A DNA stretch of 40,403 nucleotides from Armatimonadetes bacterium 13_1_40CM_64_14 (GTDB lineage Bacteria; Sysuimicrobiota; Sysuimicrobiia; Sysuimicrobiales; Kaftiobacteriaceae). A program made the translations under genes and the position numbers. The notes under the pieces were generated by a model. It made no database searches and was not told where the DNA came from. It was given only the letters and a program-made list of their open reading frames with translations. Shown piece by piece: positions 1,783 through 27,833 of the stretch. The DNA is taken from positions 1 to 40,403 of the forward strand of contig MNEU01000019.1 of NCBI GenBank assembly GCA_001917855.1, given 5' to 3'. Positions within the stretch are counted from its first letter, which is position 1, and each line of letters begins with the position of its first letter.

Positions 1783-1857
1783 GCCGGCGTAGCTCAGTGG
1801 TAGAGCAGCGCACTCGTAATGCGCAGGTCATCGGTTCGAGTCCGATCGCCGGCTCCA
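1783..1857 (+). tRNA. tRNA-Thr (anticodon CGT), CCA encoded
   Basis: Full cloverleaf: GCCGGCG acceptor, GCTCAGTGGTAGAGC D-arm, GCGCA-CTCGTAA-TGCGC anticodon arm, ATCGGTTCGAGTCCGAT T-arm, CGCCGGC-T-CCA. Confidence 0.95.
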
Positions 1858-1858
1858 G
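1809..1858 (+). repeat. att copy 1 (3' half of tRNA-Thr plus CCAG)
   Basis: CGCACTCGTAATGCGCAGGTCATCGGTTCGAGTCCGATCGCCGGCTCCAG, repeated identically at 18419-18468. Confidence 0.85.
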
Positions 1859-1952
1859 TTCTATACGGATTTCTGCACGGTTTTTCTTTCGGGGTTTGCG
1901 GTCTCAATTGCACCCTAGTAGCACCGCGAAACGCGTCCTCGTAGCGCCTAAG
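1858..1952 (-). pseudogene. C-terminal remnant of a tyrosine integrase-like gene reading into the att core
   Basis: Minus-strand translation LRRYEDAFRGATRVQLRPQ...TGAGDRTRTDDLRIT aligns with the tail beside att copy 3 (LRKLEGAFDGATRVLLKPT...PGAGDRTRTDDLRIT). Confidence 0.45.
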
Positions 1953-2177
1953 ACCGTCGCCGCCCCGACCCACCATCGGTTGTCGGGCGTACATTCGGTC
2001 ATACGGTTCCGTGCGACAACCATCCCCCCTGGCGTCCGAAACTTCCTAGGCTTGCATGAGCGCGGTCCATTCCCACCCGCTCCGTAACTCCATGGCTGGA
2101 CAATAACAGGAGGTGACGCACGCACGGCGGAACTTGCCCCCGAGTCCGGATTGGAGCAACGAAGGGAGTCGTGACCT

Positions 2178-3557
2178 ATGCGGTATGAAGTCGTCGTTGC
2201 GGGTGGCCTCCTGGTAACGGGTCAGGGTGTAGTGGAGGCACACTTGGGCATTACCGGCGGGAGGATTGTCGCTATCGCGCAGGAGCCACTGACTGGCGAT
2301 GAGATGATCGACGCACGCCAGCGTGTCATTCTTCCAGGAGCGGTCGACCTTCACGTGCACTTCAACGACCCCGGACGCGCTCACTGGGAAGGGTGGGGCC
2401 CTGGGAGTCGCGCTGCCGCTGCGGGCGGCGTGACGTCTGTCGTGGACATGCCGCTCAACTGCCTGCCGCCAGTGACCACTGTCGAGGCCCTTCGGGCGAA
2501 ACTTGCTGCCGCGTCCGGGCAGTCCATGGTGGACTACGCGCTGTGGGGCGGGCTGATTACCGACAATCGCGAGCACCTCGCCGGTCTGGCCGATGGAGGT
2601 GTGATCGGGTTCAAGGCTTTCATGAGCCACAGCAGCACAGAGGAGTTCACACATGTCGAGGACGGCGTGTTGTTCGATGGACTGCTCCGTCTCCGAGAAT
2701 TGGGACACTTCCTGGCCGTCCACGCGGAGAGCAACGCGATCACCCAGGATCGGATGCGCCGGTTGCAGGCGTCAGGCCGCCGGGATCGGCGCGCGTGGGG
2801 CGAGGCCCGGCCGCCAATCGCGGAACTCGAAGCTATTCACCGGATACTGTTCCTGGCCAGACAGGCGAACTGCCCAGTCCACATCGTACACATGAGCCTG
2901 CCGGAAGGAGCCGAGATGATCCACGCGGCCCGTACCGGCGGGCAGGCGGTGACCGTGGAAACGTGCGCGCACTATCTGTCATTGACTGAAAACGATCTCA
3001 TACGTCTGGGTCCTGTGGCCAAGTGCGCGCCGCCGTTGCGCGACCCTGATCGACAGCGCGGCCTGTGGGAGGCGGTGCTGGACGGCCGTATCGACTGCAT
3101 CACTTCCGACCACTCGCCGTGTCCTGTCGAAGATAAGGCCCGCGGCGAGGACGACATTTGGGCGGCCTGGGGCGGCATCACGGGGATCCAAACGCTCGTG
3201 CCGCTGATGCTGACGGAGGGAGTGCATCGACGAGGCCTGGGTCTGGAACGGCTGGTCGCATTGCTGTCCACCACTCCGGCGAAGATCGCCGGCCTGTGGC
3301 CCCGGAAGGGGGAGATCCGCCTGGGCGCCGACGCCGATCTGCTCGTCGTGGAGCTGGAGCGTCCCTGGCGGGTGGAGGCGGAATGGTTGTATTCACGTCA
3401 CCGGCAGTCCCCATTCATCAGCCGGGAGTCGATCGGGTGGATTGAGCGCGTGTTGCTACGCGGTCGAACGATCGCCCTCGACGGCCGGGTGGTAGACGAG
3501 CCGCACGGGGAGTGGCTCCGCCCCGTGCGGTCGGGACGAGGAGGAGCAGAATCGTGA
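2178..3557 (+). CDS. Dihydroorotase/allantoinase-like cyclic amidohydrolase
   Basis: LPGAVDLHVHFNDPGR, GGVTSVVDMPLN, GFKAFMSHSS, VHAESN, VHIVHMS, ETCAHYLSLT, KCAPPLR, CITSDHSPCP. Confidence 0.85.
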   Translation: MRYEVVVAGGLLVTGQGVVEAHLGITGGRIVAIAQEPLTGDEMIDARQRVILPGAVDLHVHFNDPGRAHWEGWGPGSRAAAAGGVTSVVDMPLNCLPPVTTVEALRAKLAAASGQSMVDYALWGGLITDNREHLAGLADGGVIGFKAFMSHSSTEEFTHVEDGVLFDGLLRLRELGHFLAVHAESNAITQDRMRRLQASGRRDRRAWGEARPPIAELEAIHRILFLARQANCPVHIVHMSLPEGAEMIHAARTGGQAVTVETCAHYLSLTENDLIRLGPVAKCAPPLRDPDRQRGLWEAVLDGRIDCITSDHSPCPVEDKARGEDDIWAAWGGITGIQTLVPLMLTEGVHRRGLGLERLVALLSTTPAKIAGLWPRKGEIRLGADADLLVVELERPWRVEAEWLYSRHRQSPFISRESIGWIERVLLRGRTIALDGRVVDEPHGEWLRPVRSGRGGAES

Positions 3558-3568
3558 AGGGCGAAAAC

Positions 3569-3580
3569 CATATTAATATG
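3569..3580. promoter_or_regulatory. Perfect 12-bp palindrome CATATTAATATG just upstream of gntR; candidate operator or -10 region
   Basis: AT-only core in GC-rich context, ending 7 bp before the ATG at 3587. Confidence 0.4.
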
Positions 3581-3586
3581 TAAATC

Positions 3587-4438
3587 ATGCCTCCCAAGAC
3601 TCCTTCGCCCTTCCCGATGACTCCGGAGGCGTCGCTTACCCGCGATGCCGGCCGGCCTTACTACGAGCGGCTGAAGCACTCGATCACCGCGATGATCGAG
3701 ACTGGCCTCCTCAAGGACGGGGATCGCGTGCCAAGCACGCAGGATCTCTGTCGGCGGTTCGGCGTCAGCCACATCACTGTCACCAAGGCGCTGCAGGATC
3801 TCGCGCGCGAGGGCGTTCTCTCGCGGGTCCAGGGCAAAGGCACCTTCGTGAGTGGCCGGCCAATCGAACGACGCCTGACCAACTTGGTGTCTTTCACCCG
3901 CGAGATGGCCCGCCAGGGGTTGGTTGTGCGCTCGCGCGTCCTGAGCGTGCACGAGCGCGCCAGCACGCCTGGCCTCAACCGTCGCTTCGGCCGCCCAGCT
4001 GAAGAGTCGGCGCGTTACATCGAGATCAAACGCCTGCGATTCGTGGCCGGGACGCCGGCATGCGTAGCTACGTCGATTTTCCCGGAGGCGATAGGAGGCC
4101 GTCTAGCCGGCCTGCCGCTAGAAAATGCGTCATTCTATGACCTGCTTGAGCGTGAATTCGGCTTGCGCTTGCTCCGGGAGGAGCGGTGGATCACGCCTAT
4201 TGTGGCGACACCCCCGCTGGCGCGGCTGCTGGAGGTGCCCCGAGGCGCACCGCTGTTCCGACTGGAAGGTCTGACCTTCTTGGAAGGCGATATCCCCGTC
4301 GAGTTGACCGATAGCGTCTTCCGGGGTGATCGATTTCGCTTTGTTGCGAACTTGTTCCGCTTTGTGGGAAACCAAGAGCGCGAGGACGCCACGGCCGTGG
4401 TCGTTCCGTCGCAGCACGGGAGGGGGGAAGCAAGATGA
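3587..4438 (+). CDS. GntR family (HutC/UTRA type) transcriptional regulator
   Basis: wHTH GDRVPSTQDLCRRFGVSHITVTKALQDLAREGVLSRVQGKGTFV; UTRA-like C-terminal region. Confidence 0.9.
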   Translation: MPPKTPSPFPMTPEASLTRDAGRPYYERLKHSITAMIETGLLKDGDRVPSTQDLCRRFGVSHITVTKALQDLAREGVLSRVQGKGTFVSGRPIERRLTNLVSFTREMARQGLVVRSRVLSVHERASTPGLNRRFGRPAEESARYIEIKRLRFVAGTPACVATSIFPEAIGGRLAGLPLENASFYDLLEREFGLRLLREERWITPIVATPPLARLLEVPRGAPLFRLEGLTFLEGDIPVELTDSVFRGDRFRFVANLFRFVGNQEREDATAVVVPSQHGRGEAR

Positions 4439-5484
4439 GACAGGCAGTGATACTGGGGCTGTGCTTTGGAGTGCTTGGTGCAATGATGGTCGCACCGCCG
4501 CTCAGCGGGCAATCCGGCGAAATCGTCATGATCAGCTACGCCGGGCCGTCGCAGGAACCACATCGATTCTATCTGGTTGAGCCGTTCCAGCAAGCGCATC
4601 CGGGTCTGACAGTCCGGTTAGTGCCCGACGAGGCGGGGGAGTATGTGGCGCGCGTGCAGGCCGCGCTCGCCGCGAGCCGGCCGTCGCCGGTGGACCTGGC
4701 GCCCAACGGTGAGCCGCCCCACCTGCGTCTGATCGGGCTCGGGCTGCTGGAGCGTACCAACACCGACCTGGTGCCGAACCTCAAGCTCGCGTATCAAGCT
4801 TTCGTAGAGAAGAGCCAGGGCTACGGCGTGCCGGCGACCTATTCGTTGATCGGCATCGCCTACAATAGCCAGAAGGTCACAAAGGTCCCGACCTCCTGGA
4901 AAGACTTGTGGGACCCCGCGTACCGGGGCAAGGTAGGGCTGACGTCATCATCCAGCAACCTGGGCCTAGGCTTCCTAGTGGCAGCGGCCAAGATGAATGG
5001 TGGGGATGAAGCGAATCTGGAGCCCGCGTGGCAGGCGATCAGATCGCTCCAGCCGTTCGTCATCGCGCCGAATCCGACGGCACTCGCCCAATTGTTCGAG
5101 CGCGAAGAGATCGTCATCGCACCACTGTGGAGCACGGACGCCGCGGTGCTCGCCAGCAAGGGCCTGCCGATCAAATTCGTGAAACCGCAGCCAGGTGCGA
5201 TCGCTATCGTGTCGTTCCTGAGTATCATCAAGGGAAGCCAGTTCACGCAGATCGCACACGAGTTACTTAATCGCGTGCTCAGCGAAGAGTATCAAAGCAA
5301 AGCGGCCGCTAAGCCATACTTCTTCGGTCCTACTAACGTGAAAGTCGCAGTGCCACCAGAAGCGGCCGACTACATCCCCACGACGCTAAATGAGATCCGC
5401 CGCCTGCAAACCGTAAACTGGCCCGTGATAGTTCCTGTGCGCGCGGCGATCGTTGAGCGCTGGAACCGCGAGTTTGCCCGTTAG
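4435..5484 (+). CDS. ABC transporter substrate-binding protein (spermidine/putrescine/opine-like)
   Basis: Signal peptide; YGVPATYSLIGIAYNSQKV, SWKDLWDPAYRGKVGL; start overlaps the gntR stop. Confidence 0.85.
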   Translation: MRQAVILGLCFGVLGAMMVAPPLSGQSGEIVMISYAGPSQEPHRFYLVEPFQQAHPGLTVRLVPDEAGEYVARVQAALAASRPSPVDLAPNGEPPHLRLIGLGLLERTNTDLVPNLKLAYQAFVEKSQGYGVPATYSLIGIAYNSQKVTKVPTSWKDLWDPAYRGKVGLTSSSSNLGLGFLVAAAKMNGGDEANLEPAWQAIRSLQPFVIAPNPTALAQLFEREEIVIAPLWSTDAAVLASKGLPIKFVKPQPGAIAIVSFLSIIKGSQFTQIAHELLNRVLSEEYQSKAAAKPYFFGPTNVKVAVPPEAADYIPTTLNEIRRLQTVNWPVIVPVRAAIVERWNREFAR

Positions 5485-5489
5485 GCAGG

Positions 5490-6356
5490 ATGCGATCCCC
5501 ACGGGTCGGGACGTGGCATCAGGCAGAGCTCGCCGCCCCGGCTGTAGTGTTTCTAATCATCTTCCTGGCGATCCCACTGCTGCTGCTGTTCGCGTTTGGA
5601 CTGGTTGACATCCGCGCGGCCCGGGTTGTGCCCGGCTCCTGGACGTTAGAACACTACGCGCGGATCCTGGGCGATCCATTCTACTACCGTATTTTCCTGC
5701 GTACGTTCTGGATGGGCCTGGGTGCGACGATCTTCTGCCTGCTCTTCGGCTATCCGGTCGCCTACCTCTTTACCCGCGTGGGGCCCGCGGCGCGACAGGT
5801 TCTGCTCGTCCTGATTCTAGCGCCGCTGCTGACGAACGCGGTCGTGCGGACGTTTGGCTGGATGATCATTCTGGGTGGACAGAAAGGTCTAATCAACGCC
5901 CTGCTGCTGCGCGTGGGGCTGATCGACGAGCCGGTCAGAATTCTCTACACGATGAGCGGCGTGCTGATCGGCCTGACGCAAATCCAGCTCCCGTTCATGA
6001 TCCTGCCGGTCATCGCCGCCTTGGAGGGACAGGACCGTAGCTTGCAGGAGGCCGCGGCCGGGCTGGGTGCCACGTGGGCGCAGACCTTTTTCCATGTCGT
6101 CGTGCCGCTGAGCATGCCCGGTGTGCTCACCGGATCCGCGCTTGTCTTCGTGATTTCGTACACGAACTTTGCTGTACCGGCGCTGCTGGGCGGCGGATCG
6201 TTCGCCGTGATCCCTACCTTTATCTTCGAACAGATCTCGGCACTGCTGCAGTGGAATAACGGCGCTGTCCTTTCGTCGCTGCTGCTGGGTACGGCCATGG
6301 TCATGTTGTGGCTATTCAATCGAGCCTCGGCCCGACTGCTGCGGTGGACGCGGTGA
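5490..6356 (+). CDS. ABC transporter permease (PotB-like)
   Basis: Multiple TM segments; EAAAGLGATWAQTFFHVVVPLSMPGVLTG EAA motif. Confidence 0.9.
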   Translation: MRSPRVGTWHQAELAAPAVVFLIIFLAIPLLLLFAFGLVDIRAARVVPGSWTLEHYARILGDPFYYRIFLRTFWMGLGATIFCLLFGYPVAYLFTRVGPAARQVLLVLILAPLLTNAVVRTFGWMIILGGQKGLINALLLRVGLIDEPVRILYTMSGVLIGLTQIQLPFMILPVIAALEGQDRSLQEAAAGLGATWAQTFFHVVVPLSMPGVLTGSALVFVISYTNFAVPALLGGGSFAVIPTFIFEQISALLQWNNGAVLSSLLLGTAMVMLWLFNRASARLLRWTR

Positions 6357-7183
6357 GGCGGCCGCGCGCCCCGGCAGGCGACCTGTTGCTGACGGCGGCA
6401 CTCGGCGCGCTGAGCGGTGTATCTCTGCTTGCGCTGGTGTTTCCGAGCGTGCTGGTGGTAATCACGTCGTTCAACGCCTCAGACTTCCTAACGTTTCCGC
6501 CGCAGGGGTGGTCACTCCGCTGGTACCAGGCCATGGCCGGCAACTGGGAAGTCCGCCAGGCGGCGACGCTGAGTCTGAAGGTCGCCGCCTTGGTCGTAGC
6601 GATCGACCTGCTGCTTGGCGTCCCTGCAGCGTTCCCGCTGACGCGCACCCGCTTCCGCGGCCGAGAGCTGGTCAGGACGTTCCTCTTCTCCCCATTGATG
6701 CTACCCGGTATCGTCATCGGCATCGGACTGCTATTTTTTTTCATGCTGCTGGGATGGTCCTTGTCGCTCCCGCTGCTCGTGATCAGCCATGTGGTCGTGA
6801 CCCTGCCGTTCATCGTGAGCATGACAAGCGCGCGCCTGGCGGCTCTTGACCCCACGTACGAGGAGGCGGCCTTGAGCCTCGGCGCAAGTCAGGTGCAGAA
6901 GTTCGCGCACATTGTCTTGCCGCAACTGTGGTCGGGCATCGCTGCAGGCGCAGCCTTCGCCTTTTTGCTGTCGTTCGACAACTTCACGGTCTCGCTGTTC
7001 ACAGCCAGCGACCGACTGCGACCGCTGCCTATCGTGCTGTTCTACCTGTTGCGGTACGACATCAACCCGCTGGTGGGTGCGGTATCCAGCCTGGAAATCG
7101 GACTGGCGCTGTTCGTACTGCTGGTCGGTAGCCGCCTGCTGGGCCTGGCCCGGCTGACACAGTTGAGTCGGAGGGTCACGTGA
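6353..7183 (+). CDS. ABC transporter permease (PotC-like); GTG start overlapping upstream stop
   Basis: EEAALSLGASQVQKFAHIVLPQLWSGIAAG EAA motif; GTGA overlap at 6353-6356. Confidence 0.88.
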   Translation: MRRPRAPAGDLLLTAALGALSGVSLLALVFPSVLVVITSFNASDFLTFPPQGWSLRWYQAMAGNWEVRQAATLSLKVAALVVAIDLLLGVPAAFPLTRTRFRGRELVRTFLFSPLMLPGIVIGIGLLFFFMLLGWSLSLPLLVISHVVVTLPFIVSMTSARLAALDPTYEEAALSLGASQVQKFAHIVLPQLWSGIAAGAAFAFLLSFDNFTVSLFTASDRLRPLPIVLFYLLRYDINPLVGAVSSLEIGLALFVLLVGSRLLGLARLTQLSRRVT

Positions 7184-8478
7184 CCTCGCCGGTCCTGTAC
7201 CTCGCCGATACGCTGATCGACGGCACTGGGTCGGCGCCGCAGCGACGTGGTGCCGTTTTGGTCGATGGAGAACGTATCGCCGCGGTAGGCGAGCAGGCGC
7301 GGGCCGCGGCACCAGCGGGTGTGCACGTCGTCGAATTGGCCGGCTGCACCCTGCTGCCCGGGCTGATCGATGCGCACCTGCACCTCGACGGGTGGCGCAG
7401 CCTCAATCGGACCGACTGGGTCCTCATGGACGATGGCCTGCGCGCGATCGACGCTGCGCATGACGCTGCCCGGATGCTGGCCGCCGGGTTCACCAGCGTG
7501 CGCGACATGGGCAGCGTAGCCGCGGTCTCGCTCAGGGAGGCTGTACGGGCAGGTGAGGTGCCCGGGCCGCGGATGCAGGTCGCCGTAAAAGGGATCTATC
7601 AGACCGGCGGGCAGGGCGACCGGGCATGGCTGCCCCTGGACATGGTGCGAGCGCGCGAGTCGTGCCGCCTCGCCGACGGCCCGGACGATTGCCGCCGGGC
7701 CGTACGCGAGATGGTCCGTGCGGGCGCCGACGTCATCAAGATCGCTGCATCTGGAGGCCCGCGTTCGATGGTGCCGCACTTCTCGCCCGAAGAGCTGGCC
7801 GCACTGGTGGATGAGGCCCACCGGATGGGGTTCCGCGTGGCCTGCCACGCACTTGGGGCGGTGGCGATCCGCAACGCGGTCGACGCGGGTGTGGACAGCA
7901 TCGAGCACGGCTACGGACTTGACGCGGCCACAGCAGAGCGGATGGCGCAGCGCGGCACCTTTCTCGTATGCGACCTGTTGATGCGCGAGCGATACGCCAC
8001 ACGCGGGCCCGCGTTTAGGTATCCGCAGGCCGAGGCGGACGCGGCAGCCCGTGCCCTGGAGACCGGCATGGCTTCGCTGCGGCTGGCACATGAAGCGGGC
8101 GTGCGCGTCGCATTCGGGACAGATTACGGCGGGCAGCCGATCCTGCCGCCCAATGAACTCGCCGACGGACTGCTGCTGATGATTGAGGCGGGCCTCTCCG
8201 CGCTTGAGGCGATCCGTGCCGCAACAGCCACAGCCGCCGCCGTGATGGGATGGGAGGATCGGCTCGGGACGCTCCAGGCTGGCCGGCTGGCCGACATGAT
8301 CGCAGTGTCCGCCGACCCCCTCATGGATCTCCACATCGTTCGTCGGCCGGTCCTGGTGATGCAGGGTGGCCGACTGATTCCGCCGGACGTCGGCACCTGG
8401 CCGCGCGAGGCACAGGTGCCGTCCACTCACCGCCAGGGAGCGATGACACTCCCCATGGCCCCGGTGGAACAGAGATGA
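7180..8478 (+). CDS. Amidohydrolase (imidazolonepropionase/prolidase-like)
   Basis: LLPGLIDAHLHLDGW, GFTSVRDMG, DVIKIAASGG, ACHALG, SIEHGYGL, FGTDYGG, GRLADMIAVSADPL. Confidence 0.85.
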   Translation: MTSPVLYLADTLIDGTGSAPQRRGAVLVDGERIAAVGEQARAAAPAGVHVVELAGCTLLPGLIDAHLHLDGWRSLNRTDWVLMDDGLRAIDAAHDAARMLAAGFTSVRDMGSVAAVSLREAVRAGEVPGPRMQVAVKGIYQTGGQGDRAWLPLDMVRARESCRLADGPDDCRRAVREMVRAGADVIKIAASGGPRSMVPHFSPEELAALVDEAHRMGFRVACHALGAVAIRNAVDAGVDSIEHGYGLDAATAERMAQRGTFLVCDLLMRERYATRGPAFRYPQAEADAAARALETGMASLRLAHEAGVRVAFGTDYGGQPILPPNELADGLLLMIEAGLSALEAIRAATATAAAVMGWEDRLGTLQAGRLADMIAVSADPLMDLHIVRRPVLVMQGGRLIPPDVGTWPREAQVPSTHRQGAMTLPMAPVEQR

Positions 8479-9632
8479 CAGCCGGTATCCTGGAGCGCCT
8501 AGTCGACATCGGGGGATCCTTCGATCTGCCGACCCTAGTGCGGTGTGTCGCCGAGACCACCGGCCCTGCGTGGGCCGCGGCGCTGCCCGCCGATCGCGCC
8601 CGAGTCTTTCGGCGTGTAGTGATCAGTGGGTGCGGTGATTCGCTCTTCGCGGCGACCTCGGCGCGCCTCGCGCTGGAGCGTTTCAGCGGTCTGCCTTGCG
8701 AGCCGATGGATGCGCTAGAGTGTGGGCGATACGAGGCGGCGCGCTTTGGGCCGGATGTGCTGGTCCTGGGGATCTCCAACTCTGGAACGACCTCACGAGT
8801 GATCGAATCGATCGTGCTGGCGGCACGAGCCAGAGCTGCAACCGTGGCGCTGACCGGCGCCGCCGACTCGCCCCTGGAGCGCGCGGCCGGGGCCGCTGTC
8901 GTTCGCGCCATTGTCGGGGCCGGGGACCGGGAAAGTCCCACGGCGCGTGTTGAACGCCACCTCGGAGAGTATGTAGGGACGGTCGCGGCGCTCTTTCATC
9001 TGGCGCTGTGGCTGGGCGAAGCGCGAGGAATGACGAGTACGCGCGACACGCGCCACCAAGTCGAGGCAATCGAGGCCGCTGCTGCGGTCGCGCAGCGAGC
9101 GCTTGTCGACGCCCCACCACAGGTTGTGCATGCCCTCGAACTCTTGGGCAACGCTGACCGCATCTTCTACCTCGGGGCGGGTCCAGCATACGGAACCGCG
9201 CTGTTCGGTGCCGCCAAGCTGGTGGAGGAAGTGCCGATGTGCGGTGTGCCGCAGCACCTAGAAGAGTGGGCGCATCTGGAATACTTCCTGACGATGATCG
9301 AAGGAAAGCATTCGCGTGCCGTGGTAGTGGCGCCGCCCGGCGATAGCACCGACCGCGTGGTCGAGATCATTCAAGCCATCCGAGAGGACCACGGCATCGC
9401 AGTGGCAGTGACGCATCCCCGCGAGGACGCGGTTTGTCAGACTGCAGCCACGACCATCGCGGTGGACGGCACCATCTGGGAGGGATACGCACCGATACCC
9501 TACGTTGTTCCGGTGCAGCTGCTGAGTATCGCGCTGGCGTTGCACGCCGGGCAGGCGGTGGTGCCACTGGGCCGCCGTGACGGTGGCCGCCTCATCCGCG
9601 GCAGCGCCATACGCGGGCTGCCACACGCGTGA
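8475..9632 (+). CDS. SIS (sugar isomerase) domain protein 1, possible FrlB/FraB-like deglycase
   Basis: ISGCGDSLFAATSARLA, GISNSGTTSRVIE, FYLGAGPAYGTALFGAAKLVEE, HLEEWAHLEYF; ATGA overlap with upstream gene. Confidence 0.82.
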   Translation: MTAGILERLVDIGGSFDLPTLVRCVAETTGPAWAAALPADRARVFRRVVISGCGDSLFAATSARLALERFSGLPCEPMDALECGRYEAARFGPDVLVLGISNSGTTSRVIESIVLAARARAATVALTGAADSPLERAAGAAVVRAIVGAGDRESPTARVERHLGEYVGTVAALFHLALWLGEARGMTSTRDTRHQVEAIEAAAAVAQRALVDAPPQVVHALELLGNADRIFYLGAGPAYGTALFGAAKLVEEVPMCGVPQHLEEWAHLEYFLTMIEGKHSRAVVVAPPGDSTDRVVEIIQAIREDHGIAVAVTHPREDAVCQTAATTIAVDGTIWEGYAPIPYVVPVQLLSIALALHAGQAVVPLGRRDGGRLIRGSAIRGLPHA

Positions 9633-9684
9633 GCGGGGTGGGGTCGGTGCGGAGCGGGGCGTTTGCGGAAGGGTGGCCTGACCG

Positions 9685-10752
9685 TTGAATGTAGAGCTGC
9701 GCGGCGTGACCAAGCGGTTTGGCGAGACAACCGCCATCGACGACATCTCGTACGCCGTGCCGGCCAAGCGCCTCGTCACCCTGCTGGGGCCGTCGGGCTG
9801 TGGGAAGACCACGCTGCTGCGCCTTGTCGCAGGGTTTGCGGCGCCTGACACGGGCGACGTACTGCTAGGCGGCGAGGTTATCACGCACGTACCGTCCAAC
9901 CAGCGGCAGATCGGCATGGTGTTTCAGAACTACGCGTTATTCCCCCACATGACTGTTGAAAGGAACGTTTCGTTCGGGCTCCGGATGCGACATGCTCCGG
10001 CCAGCCTCGTCGCGCGGCGGACGGAAGAGACGCTGGACCTTGTGGGACTGCGCGGCCTCCGCGATCGCTATCCGCATCAGCTGTCCGGGGGCCAGCAGCA
10101 ACGCGCAGCCCTCGCGCGGGCTCTGGCCATCCAGCCGCGCGTCCTGCTGCTCGACGAGCCGTTCGGCGCGCTCGACCGCAAGCTCAGATTGCAGATGCAG
10201 GTCGACGTCAAGAAGATCATCCGGCAGCTCGGCATCACGACCGTCTTCGTGACGCACGATCAGGAAGAGGCATTCACGATGTCCGACCTGATCGCGGTTA
10301 TGAACGCTGGCCGGATTGTGCAGAGCGGCGCACCCATGGAGATCTATGACAAGCCGAAGGACTCATTCGTGGCAGACTTCGTGGGCGGGAGCAATTTCAT
10401 CCCTGTCGAGGTGGCCGAGGTCGCACAGGACGGCTTAAACCTGCGCCACGGCACGGTCGTGTTTGCAGTGCCGTGGGCTGCGGACATGCTGGTGGGCCAG
10501 CGAGCTGTGCTCGTGGTGCGGCCAGAAAACCTGCGACTCGTGCAGGCCGGCCAGGGCAGTGGAGGGCTCGCTGCGACAGTGACGTTTGTGCGCCCGATCG
10601 GGCCGCTGCTGGAGTTTGAAGTCGAGACGGCGACGGGCATGCGGCTCAAGGTCGCTTCGGTGCGCGCACGTGATGCGCTGCCATTTAGCCTCGGCGACGC
10701 GGCGCGTGTCGAACTCGCGGACCCACAGGCCTGCACGGTGTTCGCAGTGTGA
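9685..10752 (+). CDS. ABC transporter ATP-binding protein (PotA-like); TTG start
   Basis: LLGPSGCGKTTLLR Walker A, LSGGQQQRAALARAL signature, LLLDEPFGALD Walker B, TOBE-like C-terminus. Confidence 0.93.
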   Translation: MNVELRGVTKRFGETTAIDDISYAVPAKRLVTLLGPSGCGKTTLLRLVAGFAAPDTGDVLLGGEVITHVPSNQRQIGMVFQNYALFPHMTVERNVSFGLRMRHAPASLVARRTEETLDLVGLRGLRDRYPHQLSGGQQQRAALARALAIQPRVLLLDEPFGALDRKLRLQMQVDVKKIIRQLGITTVFVTHDQEEAFTMSDLIAVMNAGRIVQSGAPMEIYDKPKDSFVADFVGGSNFIPVEVAEVAQDGLNLRHGTVVFAVPWAADMLVGQRAVLVVRPENLRLVQAGQGSGGLAATVTFVRPIGPLLEFEVETATGMRLKVASVRARDALPFSLGDAARVELADPQACTVFAV

Positions 10753-11699
10753 CCGTGGACATCGTTGCAGCAGGCGGCTGCACGGTGGACATCGTACATT
10801 CTGCCGATGGAACCACACGCGGCCAGCAACTCGGCGGCAACGCCATCTACGCCGCCGCCGGAGCGCGCATATGGAACCTGCGGACGGGTGTGGTGGCGCT
10901 TCGCGGCACGGGGCTGCCGGTAGGATGGGACAAGCTGTTGACCGATCTGGGGATTGACACAGAGGGTCTAATCCCGGTGGACGTCCCGGCCTCGGTGACG
11001 GAGTTCTTCTACAGCGCCGATGAGGAACGGACACAGCGGGTCTGGTCGCATGCTGGCACCGGCGCCGCCGTGCCCCACCTGCCGGCTGAGACCGGCGAGC
11101 CCATCCGCCGGCTCCGGCTGTCGGCGGATCACGTGCCCGAGCGGTACCGTCATGCGAGGGGAGCCCATGTGGGGCCGGCACACGGAGACGCGCAACGGGC
11201 GTTGATCAAGGCCTTCGCGCCTGACACAGTGCTAACGCTTGACCCCTATCCGTATCTGATGGCCGAGGCCACTGATGAGGAGCTGAGATTACTCCTGGAA
11301 CCCGTAGCTGCATTTCTGCCGAGCCACGAGGAAGTCCGAGCCAGATTCCCTGATCTAGCGCCCGAGGACGCCCTGGACCGGCTCGCGGGATTCGCTCGGG
11401 TCGCGACCGTTATCAAGGTAGGACGGCGCGGGGCGCTTGTTTACGACCGTGCCGCGGGCCGGCGCCATGCGATACCTGCGGTACCCGTGGCGGTCATCGA
11501 CCCTACCGGTGCCGGCGACGCGTTCTGTGGCGGCATGCTGGCAGGTCTGGTCGAGGCTCGCGGTGTGCTGGAGACGGTGGCGCGGGGCGCAGTCTCGGCC
11601 TCGTTCGCGGTGGAAGACTTTGGACTCGGCGCCATCCTGCGGGCCATGCCGGCCGAACGCGACCGCCGGCTGCGCTGGGTGCTGGAGCGGGTCCAGTGA
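10749..11699 (+). CDS. PfkB family carbohydrate kinase
   Basis: LGGNAIYAAAGARIW; IDPTGAGDAFCGGMLAGL signature; GTGA overlap. Confidence 0.88.
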   Translation: MTVDIVAAGGCTVDIVHSADGTTRGQQLGGNAIYAAAGARIWNLRTGVVALRGTGLPVGWDKLLTDLGIDTEGLIPVDVPASVTEFFYSADEERTQRVWSHAGTGAAVPHLPAETGEPIRRLRLSADHVPERYRHARGAHVGPAHGDAQRALIKAFAPDTVLTLDPYPYLMAEATDEELRLLLEPVAAFLPSHEEVRARFPDLAPEDALDRLAGFARVATVIKVGRRGALVYDRAAGRRHAIPAVPVAVIDPTGAGDAFCGGMLAGLVEARGVLETVARGAVSASFAVEDFGLGAILRAMPAERDRRLRWVLERVQ

Positions 11700-18468: not shown

Positions 18469-18518
18469 GTTCATCAAGAGTTTCACACTCCGCTCTCTTC
18501 GAACGAATTCGTCTAGGC

Positions 18519-18827: not shown

Positions 18828-19556
18828 ATGGGCGTTGGAGGGACTGCGTCTGTGAGCAACGCCAAGGAATTTCTTAAACTCTACAATGAACTCACGGACT
18901 ACCTTCGGGTTATCACTCGTGCCGACAGATCGGTACCCTATACAAAATTGGTTGATAGAGCGGCCGAGATCGACGCTCCAACCAAACGTGTGAGTAACAG
19001 GCTCAAAGATTATGGCGATCTCAGAAACGCAATCGTTCATCACCGAGAATACCCCGAGGAGATCATTGCGGAACCGATTAACGATGCTGTTATTCAATTC
19101 CGGACCATCGTAGAGGAAATTCGCTCGCCTAAGAAGGTCATCCCAACATTCGAGAGGACAGTACAGACGTTTGCGGCCAGCGAGCCTTTGGCCAAGGCCT
19201 TGAGTTTCATGCTCGAGAGCGATTTCTCGCAGATCCCTGTGGTCCGAGATGGAACCCTGACACTGCTAACGGTCGAAGGCATTGCGAAGTGGCTCGAGGA
19301 TCAAGCCAGACACGATTCCGTCGTAATTTCTGAGGCTACAATCGAGGATGCGCTGAGGAAAGACATTACATCTACTTTCCTGGTCATGAGCTCAGACCAC
19401 AATGTCTACGACGCCCGAGAAGCGTTTGCGACATCGCTGGAACGAGGACGGCCAAGACTCTTCGCGATCCTGATCACTCGGAGCGGGGACCCTAGGGACA
19501 GACCGATCGGCATAATTACTCCCTGGGATCTTTTGGAAGATCGCTCGGCCCTTTAA
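18828..19556 (+). CDS. HEPN-like N-terminus fused to a CBS-domain pair; start may be GTG at 18852
   Basis: DLRNAIVHHRE contains an Rx4H HEPN-type motif; SEPLAKALSFMLESDFSQIPVVRDGTLTLLTVEGIAKWL and RPRLFAILITRSGDPRDRPIGIITPWDLLE resemble CBS motifs. Confidence 0.65.
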   Translation: MGVGGTASVSNAKEFLKLYNELTDYLRVITRADRSVPYTKLVDRAAEIDAPTKRVSNRLKDYGDLRNAIVHHREYPEEIIAEPINDAVIQFRTIVEEIRSPKKVIPTFERTVQTFAASEPLAKALSFMLESDFSQIPVVRDGTLTLLTVEGIAKWLEDQARHDSVVISEATIEDALRKDITSTFLVMSSDHNVYDAREAFATSLERGRPRLFAILITRSGDPRDRPIGIITPWDLLEDRSAL

Positions 19557-19998
19557 CTTAAGAAGGACCTGATAATCGTCCGGGCGGGGTTGACCCACGC
19601 CGTCCCTCTTCGATGAGGGACCTTGAGTCGATTCAAGAAAGGGAACGGTTTCTTGACGCGGCACAGCGGGACGGAGGCGTCCCGGCCTCGCACCGCGCCC
19701 GCAGCGATGTGCAGGAGATCCCCCAGATGAGGCCTCAATGCCCATAAGGCCTCTTCGGCTCCTACGAAGGGGCATAGGAGCAGGCTGAACTGTGGATTCG
19801 TGAGCAACGAAGCCAGGGCAAGGGTAGGTCGCGCACAAACCCTCCCCGGGTACCGTCGATTTGAGCCTTCTGGCATGGGGGGTGTGGGGGGATCCCTGTA
19901 TGGCACATTTTGCCAAAGGGGAAATGGGTGAGGTGTGAAACAATTCACGAAGGCTTGACGAACCTGATCTAGGCCGAGGTAAGGATGATTAGAATCCC

Positions 19999-21974
19999 AT
20001 GACCGAACTGATCTGGGATGGCAAGTACAAAGACGACAAGAAGCAGGGACCGGTCCGCATCGCACTGCCGTTCCAAACAATCGAGACCGTAAATGAGAGC
20101 GCGCAAGACCGTCAACGGCGGCTTGAGCTATTTGCAACGGGTCGCGACGGGGAATGGCGAAACCGATTAATCTGGGGAGACAAGAAATACGTGCTTCCGT
20201 CGCTCCTCCCCGAGTTCGCTGGCAAGGTGAATCTTGTCTATATCGACCCACCTTTTGATACTGGGTCGAATTTCTCGTTTACTGCAGCGATTGCTCGCCA
20301 CCCTGAAACGGACGCGGATGAGGCGACCTATTTCGTAAAAGAACCATCAATTATCGAGCAAAAGGCCTACCGAGACACTTGGGGGAGAGGCCTTGATTCG
20401 TATTTGCAGTGGATCTATGAATCAGCAACTCTTCTCTATGAGTTGTTGGTGCCGGACGGCTCACTCTACGTTCACATAGGCCCGAATGTTTGCCACTACG
20501 TTAAAGCCGTGCTTGATGAGGCGTTCTCTCACACAGGATTCGTCAACCAGATTGTTTGGAAACGCCAGTCAGCAAAGAGTGGAGCGTTTGAAGGGATAGG
20601 ACAATACGGGCGCATCCATGAGGTAATTCTCTTTTATGCAAAATCCGATTCTTGGAAGAAGTCGAATCCGGCAGAAAGATTCAGCTAGGTGACCTTACAG
20701 CGGCGGGCTCCAGGAAAGGTGAGTCCGGAGGGCCGATATTGGTGCGAGGCGAGAGGTTTTTGCCTCCGCCGGGTAGACACTGGGCTCTTGGGCTTGAATC
20801 GGGCGAGTCTGTTCAAATGGCGATGGACCGGCTAGTGAGGGAAGGTCGCATATGGTATGAACCCGGCAAGATGCCCCGTTACAGGCGATACCTTGATGAA
20901 ATGCCCGGGGTCATGCTTCAGGACATATGGACCGACATCAGACCCGTTCCCGCTCAAGGAGGAGAGCGCCTAAACTATGAAACTCAGAAACCCGAAGCTC
21001 TCCTTGAACGCATTATCAAATCATCGTCGAATGAGGCCGACCTCGTCCTCGACTGCTTTGTTGGCAGCGGGACTACTGCTGCTGTAGCGGAGAGGCTCAA
21101 TCGCCGTTGGATTGTTTGCGATCTCAGTCGGTTTGCGATACATACTACCCGCAAGAGACTTCTTGGAATCTCCGGAGTCAAGCCGTTCGTGGTTCAGAAT
21201 CTCGGCAAGTACGAGCGCCAAGCCTGGCAGATGGCCGAGTTTCCCGGAAACGGCGAGAACCGACTTCAAGAGCAACGACTTCGTGAAGCCGCTTATCGAG
21301 CGTTTATCCTTAATGTTCACCGGGCCACTCCCGTCTCTGGCTATTCATGGCTGCATGGCAGCAAGGGCGGTCGGATGGTGCACGTGGGAGCAGTTGATGC
21401 ACCAGTGACTCTGGCCGACGTAAAAGCCATCGGGCGAGAAGCGTGGAAGGCTATCGGCAGCAACAAGGGGGCGCCGACGAAGGCGGGAGTGGACATTCTG
21501 GGATGGGAATTTGCGTTCGAGTTGAACGAGTTGGCAAAGCAAGTTGCTGCTGAATCCCGGATCGACGTTGCGTTCAAGAAGATCCCACGTGAGGTCTTGG
21601 ACAGGAGGGCTGTCGACCAGGGAGATGTGAGATTCTTCGAGTTAGGCGCTTTGTCTGTAGAAATGAAGCAAAAGCGTCGTGAGGTGATCCTAAAGCTAAC
21701 CGACTTTGTAATTCCCACCGATGACATTCCCGAAGAAGCCCGCCAAGCTATCAAGCACTGGAGCCAACTGATTGACTACTGGGCGGTGGACTGGGATTTC
21801 AAGAGCGACACATTCCACAATCAGTGGCAGACTTATCGGACGCGCAAGGAACCCAGGATCGAGTTGGAGACGAAACACGCCTATCCTGAGCCCGGGAAGT
21901 ACACGATAGTAGTTAAAGTGATCGACATACTGGGAAACGACACGACGAAGACCCTGGACGTAAGGGTTGAATAG
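19999..21974 (+). pseudogene. mod: Type III R-M methyltransferase (Mod), split into 19999-20688 and 20652-21974 by frameshift and missing segment
   Basis: NLVYIDPPFDTGSNFSF (DPPF motif IV) in the first part; NYETQKPEALLERII and DLVLDCFVGSGTTAAVAERL (motif I) in the second; junction about 20650-20670. Confidence 0.85.
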
Positions 21975-22007
21975 GACACTGAGAGCCTGGATCCTTCTCG
22001 AAAGCTG

Positions 22008-24536
22008 ATGCCACGTAGAAAGAGGCAATCCAGCCCGTCTTCGCAAGTTGAGCTCCTCGATGTAACGGCGCGGCTGCGCACGGGGCCATGTGTCCCAGCG
22101 CTCCGAGAGGCCGTGAAGGCTTGGAAGGCGGGCGGCTACAGGGGCGTCACGGACACGACGCGCATTCTTCTGAACTATTGGTTCCACACAGACCATAAGC
22201 TGGCTGGTGGACTTCCCTTTCGGTACCACATTTCCCAGAAGGAAGCGATTGAAACACTCGTTTTTGTCTGGGAGTTTGAGAAGGTCCGGACGCGAAAGGC
22301 GCTCCTAGAGCGCTACGCTCAGGATCTAAGGAACCTCCACCTACCGTTATATGATGACCTCGCTCGGTATTGCATAAAGATGGCGACCGGCAGTGGCAAG
22401 ACCAAGGTCATGGTTTTGGCGGTAGCCTGGCAGTTCCTCAATGCGGTGCGCGAAAGAAACGAGGTTAGCGAAGACTATGCTAAAACGTTCCTAATTTTGG
22501 CCCCCAACGTCATTGTCTTCGAACGACTAAAACTCGACTTCGCAGGTGGAAGGATCTTCCGCGTGGATCCCGTGATTCCAAAGGAACTCGAGATTTTTTG
22601 GGATTTTGATTGCATCATACGGGGCGAGGCCGAGAAGGCGCACGCAGACGGAACTCTGTTCCTAACAAACATCCAGCAATTCTACGAAAGGCCCGATCGC
22701 TCAGAAGGGGAAGAACCGGAAGTCATGACGCACATTTTGGGATCCAAGCCGCCGACACAAAAGCAAGAACTCACAGACTTCGGGGAGCGCATCGGTTTGC
22801 GTGCAGGCAAACTACTTGTCGTCAACGACGAGGCTCATCACACTCACGAGGAAGACAACGAGTGGAACAAAGTGATTACCCCGCGTTTCCAAAAGGGAGC
22901 CATCTTCCCCTGGACCATTTTCGACTACCCACTCAAGCAGGCCATCATCGACGGAATCGTCAAGCGCCCAATGAAAGGTGTCGCAAAGACAACTGAGGCA
23001 AAGTCCGAGTACGCCAGCATCCGGTATCAAGCCTATCTTACTGCTGGCGTGGAGCGGTGGAGGGAGTACCGTGAGCAACTGAAGCTGCTGCACAGGAAAC
23101 CTGTCCTGTTCATCATGATGAGCGACACGGACGCTGCGGACGATGTTGAGGACTGGCTAAAGAGGAAGTACCCGGCCGAATTTGGTGGTGACAAGACTCA
23201 GGTGATCCACACGGATAAGTCAGGCGAGGTCAGCAAAAGGGACTTGGACAAGGCCCGGGTAGCAGTGCGAGAGGTTGACAAGGAAGATAGTCCCATTAAC
23301 GCTATCGTGAGCGTGCTCATGCTGCGCGAGGGCTGGGACGTACGTAACGTTACAGTCGTCGTAGGCTTGAGGCCCTACACTGCGAAGGCGAATATCCTCC
23401 CAGAGCAGACAATTGGACGCGGCCTGCGATTGATGTTCCGCGAACTCCCAACTAGCTACACCGAAAGAGTTGACATCATTGGCAACAAGGCCTTCTTGGA
23501 CTTTGTAGACGATCTCGAAAAGCTCGAAGAGTTGAAACTGGACACGTTTGAACTGGGTAAGGACAAACTGCACATTGTCACCATAATGCCCCTTAAGGAG
23601 CGGAGTGAATTTGACATTGGTGTGCCTGTGCTTACGCCGTTGCTGGTACGCAAGAAGAGCCTGGCCGAGGAGATTGAGGGTCTTGACGTAATGCAACTAA
23701 GAACCGTCGTTCTGCCCATGAGCGAAGCTGATCCACTCGCAAAGACCTTTCGTTATGAAGGGTATGACATCATTACGCTAAAGAAAGAGGTCGAACGCGA
23801 ATACACAATCCCCGAACCGCAAACGGCCCAAGAGGTGATTGGATATTATGCCCGTCGGATAGCAGAAGCTGTCAAACTCCCCTCCCAATTTGCTGTGTTG
23901 GCCCCCAAGGTCCGAGAGTTCTTTGAGCATAAGGCGTTCGGGCGCTCTGCAGACTTGGATGACCCTGCGATCGTGAAGGCAATGGCCACCCCCGTAGCCC
24001 ACTACGTCTGCGTGGATGTTTTCAAGAAAGCTTTGCTTGGTCTGATCATCGAAGAGCAGATCCCTCAACTATTGGAACCAGCCAGAATGCTTTTTACGTG
24101 CCAGCCCTTTCCCTGGTCCCGGCCCGTTTGGGAGGGTCGTAAGTGTATCTTCAATCTCGTGCCTTGCGACAACGACTTCGAAAGAGAGTTTGCCAAGTTT
24201 CTCGACAACGCTCCTGACGTCGCTGCTTTTGCCAAGCTTCCCCAGGCCTTTGGATTTTCCATTGACTACACAGACTCCGGGATGAATCTGAAATCCTACT
24301 ATCCGGACTTCGTTGTAGTGGACGGGGACGAAGTGGGCTGGCTGATCGAAACTAAGGGCCAAGAGACAGCCGAAGTGGCGCGAAAGGACAGGGCTGCAAC
24401 CCTTTGGTGCGAGAACGCGACGAAGCTTTCAGGGAGGACTTGGAAGTACAAAAAGATTCCGCAGAAGGATTTTGAGGCCTTACAACCCCACCGTTTGGCG
24501 GACCTCGCCGCGCTACAGGTTCTGCTACTCGAATAG
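22008..24536 (+). CDS. res: Type III R-M Res subunit (helicase-endonuclease)
   Basis: CIKMATGSGKTKVM Walker A, VVNDEAHHTHE, LREGWDVRNVTVVVGLR, EQTIGRGLRLMFR, C-terminal YYPDFVVVDGDEVGWLIETKG nuclease motif. Confidence 0.92.
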   Translation: MPRRKRQSSPSSQVELLDVTARLRTGPCVPALREAVKAWKAGGYRGVTDTTRILLNYWFHTDHKLAGGLPFRYHISQKEAIETLVFVWEFEKVRTRKALLERYAQDLRNLHLPLYDDLARYCIKMATGSGKTKVMVLAVAWQFLNAVRERNEVSEDYAKTFLILAPNVIVFERLKLDFAGGRIFRVDPVIPKELEIFWDFDCIIRGEAEKAHADGTLFLTNIQQFYERPDRSEGEEPEVMTHILGSKPPTQKQELTDFGERIGLRAGKLLVVNDEAHHTHEEDNEWNKVITPRFQKGAIFPWTIFDYPLKQAIIDGIVKRPMKGVAKTTEAKSEYASIRYQAYLTAGVERWREYREQLKLLHRKPVLFIMMSDTDAADDVEDWLKRKYPAEFGGDKTQVIHTDKSGEVSKRDLDKARVAVREVDKEDSPINAIVSVLMLREGWDVRNVTVVVGLRPYTAKANILPEQTIGRGLRLMFRELPTSYTERVDIIGNKAFLDFVDDLEKLEELKLDTFELGKDKLHIVTIMPLKERSEFDIGVPVLTPLLVRKKSLAEEIEGLDVMQLRTVVLPMSEADPLAKTFRYEGYDIITLKKEVEREYTIPEPQTAQEVIGYYARRIAEAVKLPSQFAVLAPKVREFFEHKAFGRSADLDDPAIVKAMATPVAHYVCVDVFKKALLGLIIEEQIPQLLEPARMLFTCQPFPWSRPVWEGRKCIFNLVPCDNDFEREFAKFLDNAPDVAAFAKLPQAFGFSIDYTDSGMNLKSYYPDFVVVDGDEVGWLIETKGQETAEVARKDRAATLWCENATKLSGRTWKYKKIPQKDFEALQPHRLADLAALQVLLLE

Positions 24537-24637: not shown

Positions 24638-24683
24638 CTCGTAATGCGCAGGTCATCGGTTCGAGTCCGATCGCCGGCTCCAG
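24638..24683 (+). repeat. att copy 3 (46-bp duplicate of tRNA-Thr 3' end)
   Basis: CTCGTAATGCGCAGGTCATCGGTTCGAGTCCGATCGCCGGCTCCAG. Confidence 0.9.
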
Positions 24684-24831
24684 GATTGATCAGGGTTTCG
24701 GGGATCGTGGATTTCGTGTCTGTGGGTTTTAGTAGCACCCTAGTAGCACCGTCAAACGCTCCTTCGAGTTTCCGCAAGGTCACCTCCCGGTCCAGCTGCC
24801 TCCCCTCTTCCACCAGGTGCCCGTAGATATC
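24684..24831 (-). pseudogene. C-terminal fragment of a tyrosine recombinase (integrase)
   Basis: Minus translation NDIYGHLVEEGRQLDREVTLRKLEGAFDGATRVLLKPTDTKS..., resembling the region from the catalytic Tyr (xxYGHL) to the C-terminus; reads into att copy 3. Confidence 0.6.
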
Positions 24832-24951
24832 ATTGCGCGGCCATAAGGCGATGCCGGTCGAATTCTGACCGAGGATAGTCCTGCATCCGGGGAGAAAGAG
24901 GACAACGCCCAGACAATTGTTCGTCAATGCTCAAGCGGGGAGGAGCAGGAG

Positions 24952-26067
24952 ATGAGCAGAGTCCGCCTACTCGTTGGAACTCACAAGGGTGGCTTCATCC
25001 TGACGTCGGATGCGAAGCGTCAACGTTGGGATGTCAGCGGCCCTGAGTTTGCCGGATGGGAAATCTACCACATCAAAGGCTCCCCCGTCGACCCGGATCG
25101 TCTGTTTGCCTCACAGTCAACCGGCTGGTTTGGGCAACAGATCCAGCGATCCAACGATGGCGGCAAGACCTGGGCGTCGGTGGACAACAAATTCGTCTAT
25201 GAAGGCAAAACGGGCACCCACCAATGGTACGACGGGACGCCGCATCCCTGGGAGTTCAAGCGAGTGTGGCATCTTGAGCCTTCCCTCATTGACCCTGATG
25301 TGGTCTATGCAGGGGTGGAAGACGCCGCGTTCTTCCGGTCCACTGACGGCGGACAAACGTGGCACGAACTGGCCGGACTGCGCCAGCATACGACCGGGTC
25401 TGCGTGGGCGCCCGGGGCAGGAGGGTTGTGCCTCCATACGATCGTGCAAGATCCAAGCGATTCCCGGCGCATATTCATCGCCATCTCGGCGGCCGGCGTC
25501 TTCCGGACCGATGATGGCGGCGAAACATGGCGACCGATGAACCGCGGTCTTCGTTCGCAAACCATCCCCGATCAGGATGCCGAGGTCGGTCACTGCGTGC
25601 ACCGGATCGCCATGCACCCGTCCCGCCCGCGCACCCTGTTCATGCAGAAGCACTGGGATGTCATGCGGAGCACCGACGGGGGCGAGTCGTGGCACGAAGT
25701 CAGCGGGAATTTGCCATCGGACTTTGGGTTTCCGATCGACGTGCACGCCCACGAGCCGGACACCATCTACGTGATTCCGATCAAGAGCGACTCGGAGCAT
25801 TTCCCGCCTGAAGGGAAGCTGCGCGTGTACCGCAGCCGGACGGGCGGAAACGAATGGGAGGCCCTGACCAACGGCTTGCCGCAGAGCAACTGTTATGTCA
25901 ACGTGTTGCGCGAGGCCATGGCCGTTGACTCGCTTGATCCCTGCGGCGTGTACTTCGGGACCTCGGGAGGCCAGGTGTACGGGTCGCCCGACGCCGGCGA
26001 CCACTGGTCGGCCATCGTCCGCGACCTCCCGCCGGTGTTATCTGTCGAGGTTCAGACGTTGTCATGA
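24952..26067 (+). CDS. BNR/sialidase-like beta-propeller protein
   Basis: Repeated S.DGG.TW Asp-box motifs ([48 protein letters not shown]). Confidence 0.85.
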
Positions 26068-26360
26068 TTCGAATCGTGCTTCCGTACCACTTGCGCAAGC
26101 TCGCGCAGGTCGACGGCGAAGTCCGGGTGCAGGTCGATGGGCAAGTTACGCAGCGTGCGATACTCGACGCGCTCGAAGCACAGTATCCCGTGCTTCGTGG
26201 AACGATTCGCGACCACGTGACGCAGCACAGGCGAGATTTTGTGAGGTTTTTTGCGTGTTCGCAGGATTTCTCGCTCGAGGCTCCCGATACTCCCCTGCCT
26301 GAAGCGGTCGCCAAAGGCGAGGAGCCGTTCCTGGTTGTGGGGGCAATCGCAGGCGGCTAG
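26064..26360 (+). CDS. MoaD/ThiS-like ubiquitin-fold protein with C-terminal GG
   Basis: [43 protein letters not shown]...[14 protein letters not shown] overlap with the BNR gene. Confidence 0.75.
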
Positions 26361-26449
26361 ACCTTCGCCTACCTCGACGTTTGCATCCCAAGGGTGTCCT
26401 GTGGCATTTGGAGCACGGCGCCCTTCAGGCGCGCAGCCAGATGCGCGTC

Positions 26450-27160
26450 GGGCATATCCGATTTCTTCAATCAGGGCGTCGGTGGCGGCCCGAAATGCGT
26501 GTACGTGGGTGGCCTGATCCAGACGGCCGACGAGCGCGCGCTGCAGCGGCTCGGACACGCTGGGCGGCAGGCGGTCCATGCTCTGCCTTCCACGGCTGAA
26601 AGCCGGTGGCGCAGGCAGGCCAGCGCCAGGACCTGGTCGCGCATGTGGCTGATCATGTACTCCGCCTGCCACAGTTTCCCGCGGCCGACGGACCCGCGCG
26701 CGTGGAGTGCGTAGAGCCATGCGAGGCCAATGAGCTCCGATGGCGTGGACGGCGAGGCATGGGCTCGTTCCACCGCAACACCGAACTGCAGCCGGAACGT
26801 GTGCGCCCGCGCGCCGAACTCGTGTGCCGGCGCGAACGCGAGGTCCACCTGCAGGCCGATGTGGAGCAGGAACACCCTGTAGATCCAGGCGCCGATGGTC
26901 ACGTCAAAGTGATGGACCGCGCCGTGTTCTCGGTACATGCGCTCCGTCCAATCCGCGACCGCGGCCGGCATTGTGCCAGCGTCGCCAATCCCGAAGGCAA
27001 GGTCGATATCCGACCATTGGTCCTCCGCGCCGCCCGCCGCAGATCCGGTTACCGCGGCGCCGCTGATGCGCGCGTCTTGACGGGCAGCCGCAATCAGGGC
27101 GGAGCGCAGGGTCTCGCGTTGATCACTGCGCAGGGTCTCGCGTTGATCACTGGTGTACAC
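26450..27160 (-). pseudogene. Nucleotidyltransferase-domain protein, frameshifted near 26590 (3' boundary approximate)
   Basis: AVTGSAAGGAEDQWSDIDLAFGI (GS...DxD motif); reading continues in another frame as MDRLPPSVSEPLQRALVGRLDQATHVHAFRAATDALIEEIGYA. Confidence 0.65.
27104..27151 (-). repeat. Perfect 24-bp tandem duplication at the start of the nucleotidyltransferase gene
   Basis: GCGCAGGGTCTCGCGTTGATCACT twice (27104-27127, 27128-27151); encodes SDQRETLR x2. Confidence 0.9.
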
Positions 27161-27226
27161 GCCTGATCACTCCGTGAAAATAGTACGAGGTAGCATAATA
27201 ATATCGGCTCCACGCGGAGGCGTTCC

Positions 27227-27590
27227 ATGCGAACAAGCACGCACCGGTTGCCCGGCTTGGTCTTTCGAATCATCAGTTTCTCTTGCCTCTGAACCGCAAA
27301 AGACCGGGCGGAGAGAAAATAGTTGTCTTTGCCCGCGAGGTGGTGTCGGTCGAGCACGAGCACATGACCGACCTTCCATGGCTGGTCTTCTTTCAGGGCG
27401 GACCGGGCTTTCCATCGCCGCGTCCGGACAGCAAAACCGGTTGGCTGAAGCGGGCGCTAAAAGAGTATCGTGTGCTTTTGCTGGACCAGCGCGGTACAGG
27501 GCTCTCTACTCCGGTGACGTTTCAGACTCTGGCCAGGATCGAATCGCCGCAAAAGCAGGCTGATTATCTCAAAAACTTTGGGGTACGTTC
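27227..27590 (+). pseudogene. Proline iminopeptidase-like alpha/beta hydrolase, N-terminal fragment only
   Basis: PLNRKRPGGEKIVVFAREVV, DLPWLVFFQGGPGFPSPRP, YRVLLLDQRGTGLSTPV, SPQKQADYLKNF, then similarity stops; a 1-nt frame break separates the ATG at 27227 from the HQFLLPLNRKRP frame. Confidence 0.75.
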
Positions 27591-27650
27591 CACCTTGAGT
27601 TTTCGTGCGGTTCTCGGTGCGCCTCGTGCACTGAGCGTCCGAGTTTAGTT

Positions 27651-27665
27651 GCACCCTAGTAGCAC
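27651..27665 (+). repeat. GCACCCTAGTAGCAC motif left of att copy 4 (candidate arm-type site)
   Basis: Same motif at 1910-1925 and 24735-24750 beside att copies 1 and 3. Confidence 0.55.
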
Positions 27666-27786
27666 GACAGGACGCTAGTTGCCCGACTCATGTGACGGCA
27701 ATTGATGTGCGCAACAGGGGAGACGCGAGAACATTGATCGTCTGCGCCTGCTACGACGATTGTCTACTGCTGAGAGTCATCGGGCG

Positions 27787-27833
27787 GCGCACCCGTAATG
27801 CGCAGGTCATCGGTTCGAGTCCGATCGCCGGCT
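27787..27833 (+). repeat. att copy 4 (about 47-bp duplicate of tRNA-Thr 3' end with one mismatch)
   Basis: GCGCACCCGTAATGCGCAGGTCATCGGTTCGAGTCCGATCGCCGGCT; T to C change just 5' of CGTAA; identity stops before CCA. Confidence 0.85.

Follow-up and report, generated by a model that had tools for sequence, protein, structure and literature searches.

In genomic islands integrated at tRNA genes, a tyrosine integrase gene lies beside attL, convergent with the tRNA gene, and arm-type repeats occur on both arms. Elements without integration and transfer genes but with attL and attR are called CIMEs; they were defined, in tandem accretion, for ICESt1-related elements (reviewed in PMC5704250). In the ssrA arrays of Dehalococcoides, tandem islands with catabolic cargo are found between 3′-end repeats of an RNA gene, and 15 of the islands, which are without integration modules, were proposed to be CIMEs (PMC3146451). 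The window analyzed here is a contig of 40,403 nt (MNEU01000019.1) from Armatimonadetes bacterium 13_1_40CM_64_14, a member of the order Sysuimicrobiales; in a paper on its phylum (PMC11604079), genomic islands and integrases are not mentioned.

The window contains the tRNA-Thr, tyrosine-integrase counterpart of these already known CIME and ssrA-type arrays. As in CIMEs, its islands have attL and attR, are without integration and transfer genes, and are stacked at the 3′ end of one gene; they differ in number, three being lined up at the one gene, and in their host, which belongs to an uncultivated phylum. The Dehalococcoides arrays share with it the tandem islands bounded by 3′-end repeats of an RNA gene, the missing integration modules, and the catabolic cargo, but there a serine recombinase acts at ssrA, whereas here a tyrosine integrase and a tRNA-Thr gene are involved. 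With the genomic islands of tRNA genes it shares an att site made of the tRNA 3′ end; unlike in those, the integrase is deleted in all three islands. The explanation we favor, with a probability of about 0.86, is tandem integration of related tyrosine-integrase elements at tRNA-Thr(CGT), followed by loss of the integrases.

The tRNA-Thr(CGT) array

Only one tRNA is present in the window, an intact tRNA-Thr(CGT) at 1783-1857 on the plus strand (ARAGORN). The att copies and the left flank are as follows:

310..1680, minus strand: pyruvate kinase gene, left core flank (Pfam PK, 1.5e-104)
1783..1857, plus strand: intact tRNA-Thr(CGT), with the 3′ end at 1809-1858 as att copy 1 (ARAGORN)
18419..18468, plus strand: att copy 2, 50 bp of the tRNA 3′ end (repeat search)
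24638..24683, plus strand: att copy 3, 46 bp (repeat search)
27787..27833, plus strand: att copy 4, 47 bp with one mismatch and without the CCA end; outermost right boundary

The start-to-start spacings of the four same-strand copies are 16610, 6215, and 3154 bp (repeat search), and 1809-1858 is identical to 18419-18468 across 50 bp. Both the sequences and the repeat search agree with the initial annotation, which had placed four 3′-end copies at these coordinates, copies 2-4 being without the tRNA 5′ half and in the orientation of the tRNA. With a 33-bp core and up to 3 mismatches, exactly four sites occur in the organism's own genome (2,079,062 bp, or 2.08 Mb, on 95 contigs; 77% complete), all of them these att copies, and the reversed-pattern control gives 0. 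Chance does not explain the copies. An intact tRNA followed by several direct copies of its 3′ end, with unrelated cargo between them, is the arrangement of a tandem tRNA genomic-island array.

That the copies arose by segmental duplication around the tRNA, or by misassembly, instead of by integration is extremely improbable. The short contig and the metagenome-assembled genome would fit it, but nothing except the 3′ end is copied, the places of the arm sites and of the integrase remnants are those expected (see below), and independent genomes are alike. An assembly artefact in particular is unlikely because the flanks of the four copies differ and because the same arrangement, an intact tRNA-Thr plus truncated 3′ copies, is found in the independently assembled G021 and G027.

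Repeats beside the att copies

A paired 11-bp tandem repeat, with the center GCACCCTNGNNGCAC, adjoins the att copies. Two sequence types are observed, A (TAGTAGCACC) and B (TTGGGGCACC). With distances counted from the start of the CTCGTAATG core (anticodon loop), the repeats are:

1905..1925, plus strand: left arm repeat of island 1, type A, ATTGCACCCTAGTAGCACC, at +97
18289..18309, plus strand: right arm repeat of island 1, type B, TTGGGGCACCCTTGGGGCACG, at -129 from att copy 2
18516..18534, plus strand: left arm repeat of island 2, type B, GGCGCACCCTTGGGGCACG, at +96, with a DNA match to the left end in G030
24730..24750, plus strand: left arm repeat of island 3, type A, TAGTAGCACCCTAGTAGCACC, at +97
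27644..27666, plus strand: right arm repeat of island 3, type A, TAGTTGCACCCTAGTAGCACG, at -141 from att copy 4

The window thus has five occurrences of the tandem motif, where 0.04 would be expected; these five are the only ones in the whole genome, every one beside an att copy, and the reversed-pattern control is 0. In relatives, the left arm pair is at +97 in G021, G027, and G030, at +100 in G035 (with the variant TTAGCAATTCA), and at +106 at the tRNA-Thr(TGT) of G001. The right arm is found at -128 for type B in G017 (-129 in the window) and at -142 for type A in G001:C115 (-141 in the window), each time beside a truncated tRNA 3′ copy. An enrichment of the motif over the whole order was considered and rejected: the bare 15-bp pattern has 23 hits there versus about 40 in the reversed control. 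Because the pattern is no commoner in the order than its reversed control, the meaning of these sites rests on their position and not on their frequency. In the simplest reading, the 11-bp repeats are putative arm-type binding sites of the integrase in a conserved attP. In G021:C135 (L025), an IS110-family element (local 14668-16250, transposase 14780-15877) directly follows the second tRNA copy and splits it from its arm repeat.

The left/right arm types are A/B in island 1, B/none in island 2 (the right arm repeat is missing), and A/A in island 3. Of the three islands proposed by the initial annotation, the att-bounded intervals are real, but they need not represent three events, because the arms of island 1 are of two types and island 2 is without a right arm. 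The chances are about even that the number of events differs from three, interval 1 being a deletion fusion and intervals 2 and 3 having perhaps been trimmed by att–att recombination; this is a refinement of tandem integration and not a replacement for it. The type A left arm and type B right arm of interval 1, together with the missing right arm of interval 2, speak for such events, while the core search allowing up to 3 mismatches gives no att relic inside interval 1, and a single element could also have mixed arms.

Integrases and their remnants

No integrase is present among the annotated ORFs of the three islands or of the window. Integrase C-terminal remnants are found in minus-strand frames next to two of the att copies:

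1859..1961, minus strand: short, decayed integrase C-terminal remnant at copy 1, LRRYEDAFRGATRVQL...
24684..24873, minus strand: clear integrase C-terminal remnant at copy 3, ...IYGHLVEEGRQLDREVTLRKLEGAFDGATRVLLKP... (genome-level search)

The remnant at copy 3 is 66% identical to a remnant in G001:C161 (E 1.3e-9) and 56% identical to the C terminus of the intact 405-aa integrase of G030 (E 2.3e-4); these matches come from the genome-level search, whereas the peptide (59-65 aa) gave no usable match in Pfam, PDB, and plasmid searches. The remnant at copy 1 is 55% identical to that at copy 3 over 22 aa, and its DNA matches the left end in G001 with a score of 60 (shuffle maximum, 38). At copy 2, only a few codons under the arm repeat are left. 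The scraps that remain at copy 1 (about 20 residues) and copy 2 (about 10) are very short and probably derive from an integrase as well.

Full-length tyrosine recombinases are present in G030 (405 aa, beside tRNA-Thr(CGT)) and in G035 (411 aa, at an att copy); each adjoins a tRNA-Thr end or copy and points toward the tRNA, and in both the arm repeat overlaps the 3′ end of the integrase gene. In G001, G021, and G027, the integrase is truncated as in the window. A common breakpoint of the remnants was rejected: counted from the tRNA end, the matches stop after about 70, 110, 120, 150, and 200 bp, and because these distances differ, the losses look independent.

Since an integrase gene is missing from every island, all three are decayed, non-autonomous remnants with attL and attR. 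In terms of the known classes, each of them is bounded by attL and attR that share a core (islands 1 and 3 alone having arms at both ends), the integrase is lost (no ORF among the annotated window proteins; remnants at copies 3 and 1), and conjugative transfer genes are absent from the annotated ORFs, as in CIMEs. An integrase together with a relaxase or transfer module, as in an ICE or IME, is not found; as to descent from such an element, integrase remnants are all that is left, and no trace of a relaxase is seen. The Pfam hits of the island ORFs contain no phage structural or packaging genes, as would be found in a prophage or phage satellite.

The tRNA-Thr(CGT) gene would thus serve as the attachment site for a lineage of tyrosine-integrase elements. 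On the incoming circular element, a core copied from the tRNA 3′ half would lie between two pairs of 11-bp arm-type sites; one pair would be within or beside the integrase gene's 3′ end, and the other would stand about 130-140 bp from the core on its opposite side. Each integration would rebuild an intact tRNA and displace the older 3′ end outward, and repeated integrations would yield a tandem array. Later deletions of the integrase genes, at different points, would leave the cargo surrounded by att cores, arm sites, and pieces of the integrase C terminus, and the resulting integrase-less (CIME-like) islands could be moved only by an integrase acting in trans. The outermost island is probably the oldest, since copy 4 is decayed and the usual mechanism displaces older ends outward. 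The successive site-specific integrations at a tRNA 3′ end put forward by the initial annotation are upheld by the arm-site spacing, the integrase remnants, the accessory cargo, and the single-copy tRNA-Thr of G003 and G006 (see below).

The islands may also not be dead but form a non-autonomous family kept mobile by an integrase in trans, which we regard as unlikely. Mobilization in trans would explain how cores and arm sites have outlasted the integrase: they are well kept at window copies 1-3 and in G001, G021, and G027 despite the truncation of the integrase, and intact integrases of the same group exist in G030 and G035. No such integrase is found, however, in the organism's own 77%-complete genome, where the recombinases are a XerD-type enzyme, a XerC-like enzyme, and, close to tRNA-Thr(TGT), an integrase fragment; the genome being incomplete, a helper integrase could be missing from the assembly. 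The lengths of the remnants vary from about 70 to 200 bp, as random decay predicts, the right arm of island 2 and the CCA end of copy 4 are gone, and genes of island 3 are broken. With decayed tandem integrations as the preferred reading, the islands appear immobile at present. This integrase fragment (8375-8827) follows the organism's own tRNA-Thr(TGT) (L031, G000:C92, 7934-8827) and has the same orientation as the tRNA.

Cargo of the islands

The intervals contain the following genes:

2178..18044, plus strand: island 1 cargo, a catabolic operon entirely on the plus strand (Pfam, NCBIfam; homologous operon in G042)
18828..24536, plus strand: island 2 cargo (Pfam; 53.8% GC)
18828-19556, plus strand: CBS-domain protein, island 2
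19999-20688 and 20652-21974, plus strand: type III Mod in two frames, island 2
22008-24536, plus strand: Res, island 2
24952..26360, plus strand: island 3 cargo (Pfam, NCBIfam)
24952-26067, plus strand: BNR/Asp-box repeat protein, island 3
26064-26360, plus strand: 98-aa ORF, island 3
26378..27127, minus strand: broken nucleotidyltransferase-like gene with an internal stop, 66% to G006:C152:653-1417

The 16-kb island 1 encodes an allantoinase-like protein, a GntR-UTRA regulator, two PotABCD-like ABC sets, two SIS proteins, a PfkB kinase, amidohydrolases, and a DeoC/LacD aldolase. The ABC uptake sets (4435-7183 and 12846-15709) are paralogous, each with a binding protein and two permeases, and there is one ATPase gene. 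A fructoselysine-type (frl) reading of the operon was rejected, with matches to the NCBIfam frl models far below cut-off. In G042, a member of another family, the first binding protein and two permeases are 78-84% identical to those of the window and the remaining shared genes 52-70%, with a changed gene order. Because the former values exceed those between the pyruvate kinases of the two families (about 57-62%), horizontal transfer is the best explanation for part of the operon. The cargo is foreign, as shown by the similarity to G042 and by the absence of the island 2 Res from relatives (see below), and that of island 1 was recently transferred. In the homologous operon of G042:C307 (L248), the genes for PfkB and the ABC ATPase have changed places relative to island 1; the 7.9-kb contig is without a tRNA.

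Island 2 has a GC content of 53.8% versus 62-65% elsewhere, and its Res has no counterpart in the 42 further genomes of the order that were searched. The two overlapping frames of Mod (19999-21974), beside an intact Res, suggest a frameshift or a sequencing error. Functionally distinct cargo had been proposed for the three intervals; this holds for catabolism in island 1 and type III restriction-modification in island 2, but the label of ubiquitin-like for 26064-26360 in island 3 has no support in Pfam or NCBIfam. The nucleotidyltransferase counterpart in G006 lies 2.5 kb from its tRNA-Thr. The gene as part of the native flank is disfavored; it is more likely cargo, because within the family only the own genome and G006 have it. 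At 27300-27590, the plus strand resembles the beginning of a proline-iminopeptidase-like alpha/beta-hydrolase (FFQGGPGFPSP...LLDQRGTGLST) that is truncated before copy 4.

The host locus in related genomes

Pyruvate kinase adjoins tRNA-Thr(CGT) in G002, G003, G004, G006, and G007, and also in family f3. G003 and G006, of the same family as the window genome but of a different genus, have the pyruvate kinase/tRNA-Thr neighborhood of the window, with a single tRNA and no further copies of its 3′ end; the site therefore appears unoccupied in both. No exact empty-site junction was found, because near their tRNA the relatives examined have nothing syntenic with the DNA beyond copy 4. A search for the native right flank by way of the amidohydrolase that follows copy 4 gave only distant paralogues in the family (best, 38%). 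About 90 bp past the tRNA-Thr of G003 and G006 (L023 and L024), a hairpin is followed by 15 bp of the T-arm in inverted orientation, TCGAACCGATGACCT.

Significance

On a wider scale, the tRNA-Thr genes of the Sysuimicrobiales might host a shared pool of integrase-less islands mobilized in trans by a few integrase-bearing elements, a quite unlikely proposal. If true, mobilization in trans would keep the geometry of attP, and the cores and arm sites would constitute a portable format for cargo capture. The att model (a core and two arm pairs at fixed spacings) is usable for finding integrase-less islands in fragmented genomes, and the number of intervals between tRNA repeats is not to be equated with the number of integration events. 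The array is a well-preserved fossil bed of mobile DNA, of a known kind, in an uncultivated soil-type bacterium, and it shows a route by which catabolic and defense genes are gained in a poorly known, uncultivated phylum.
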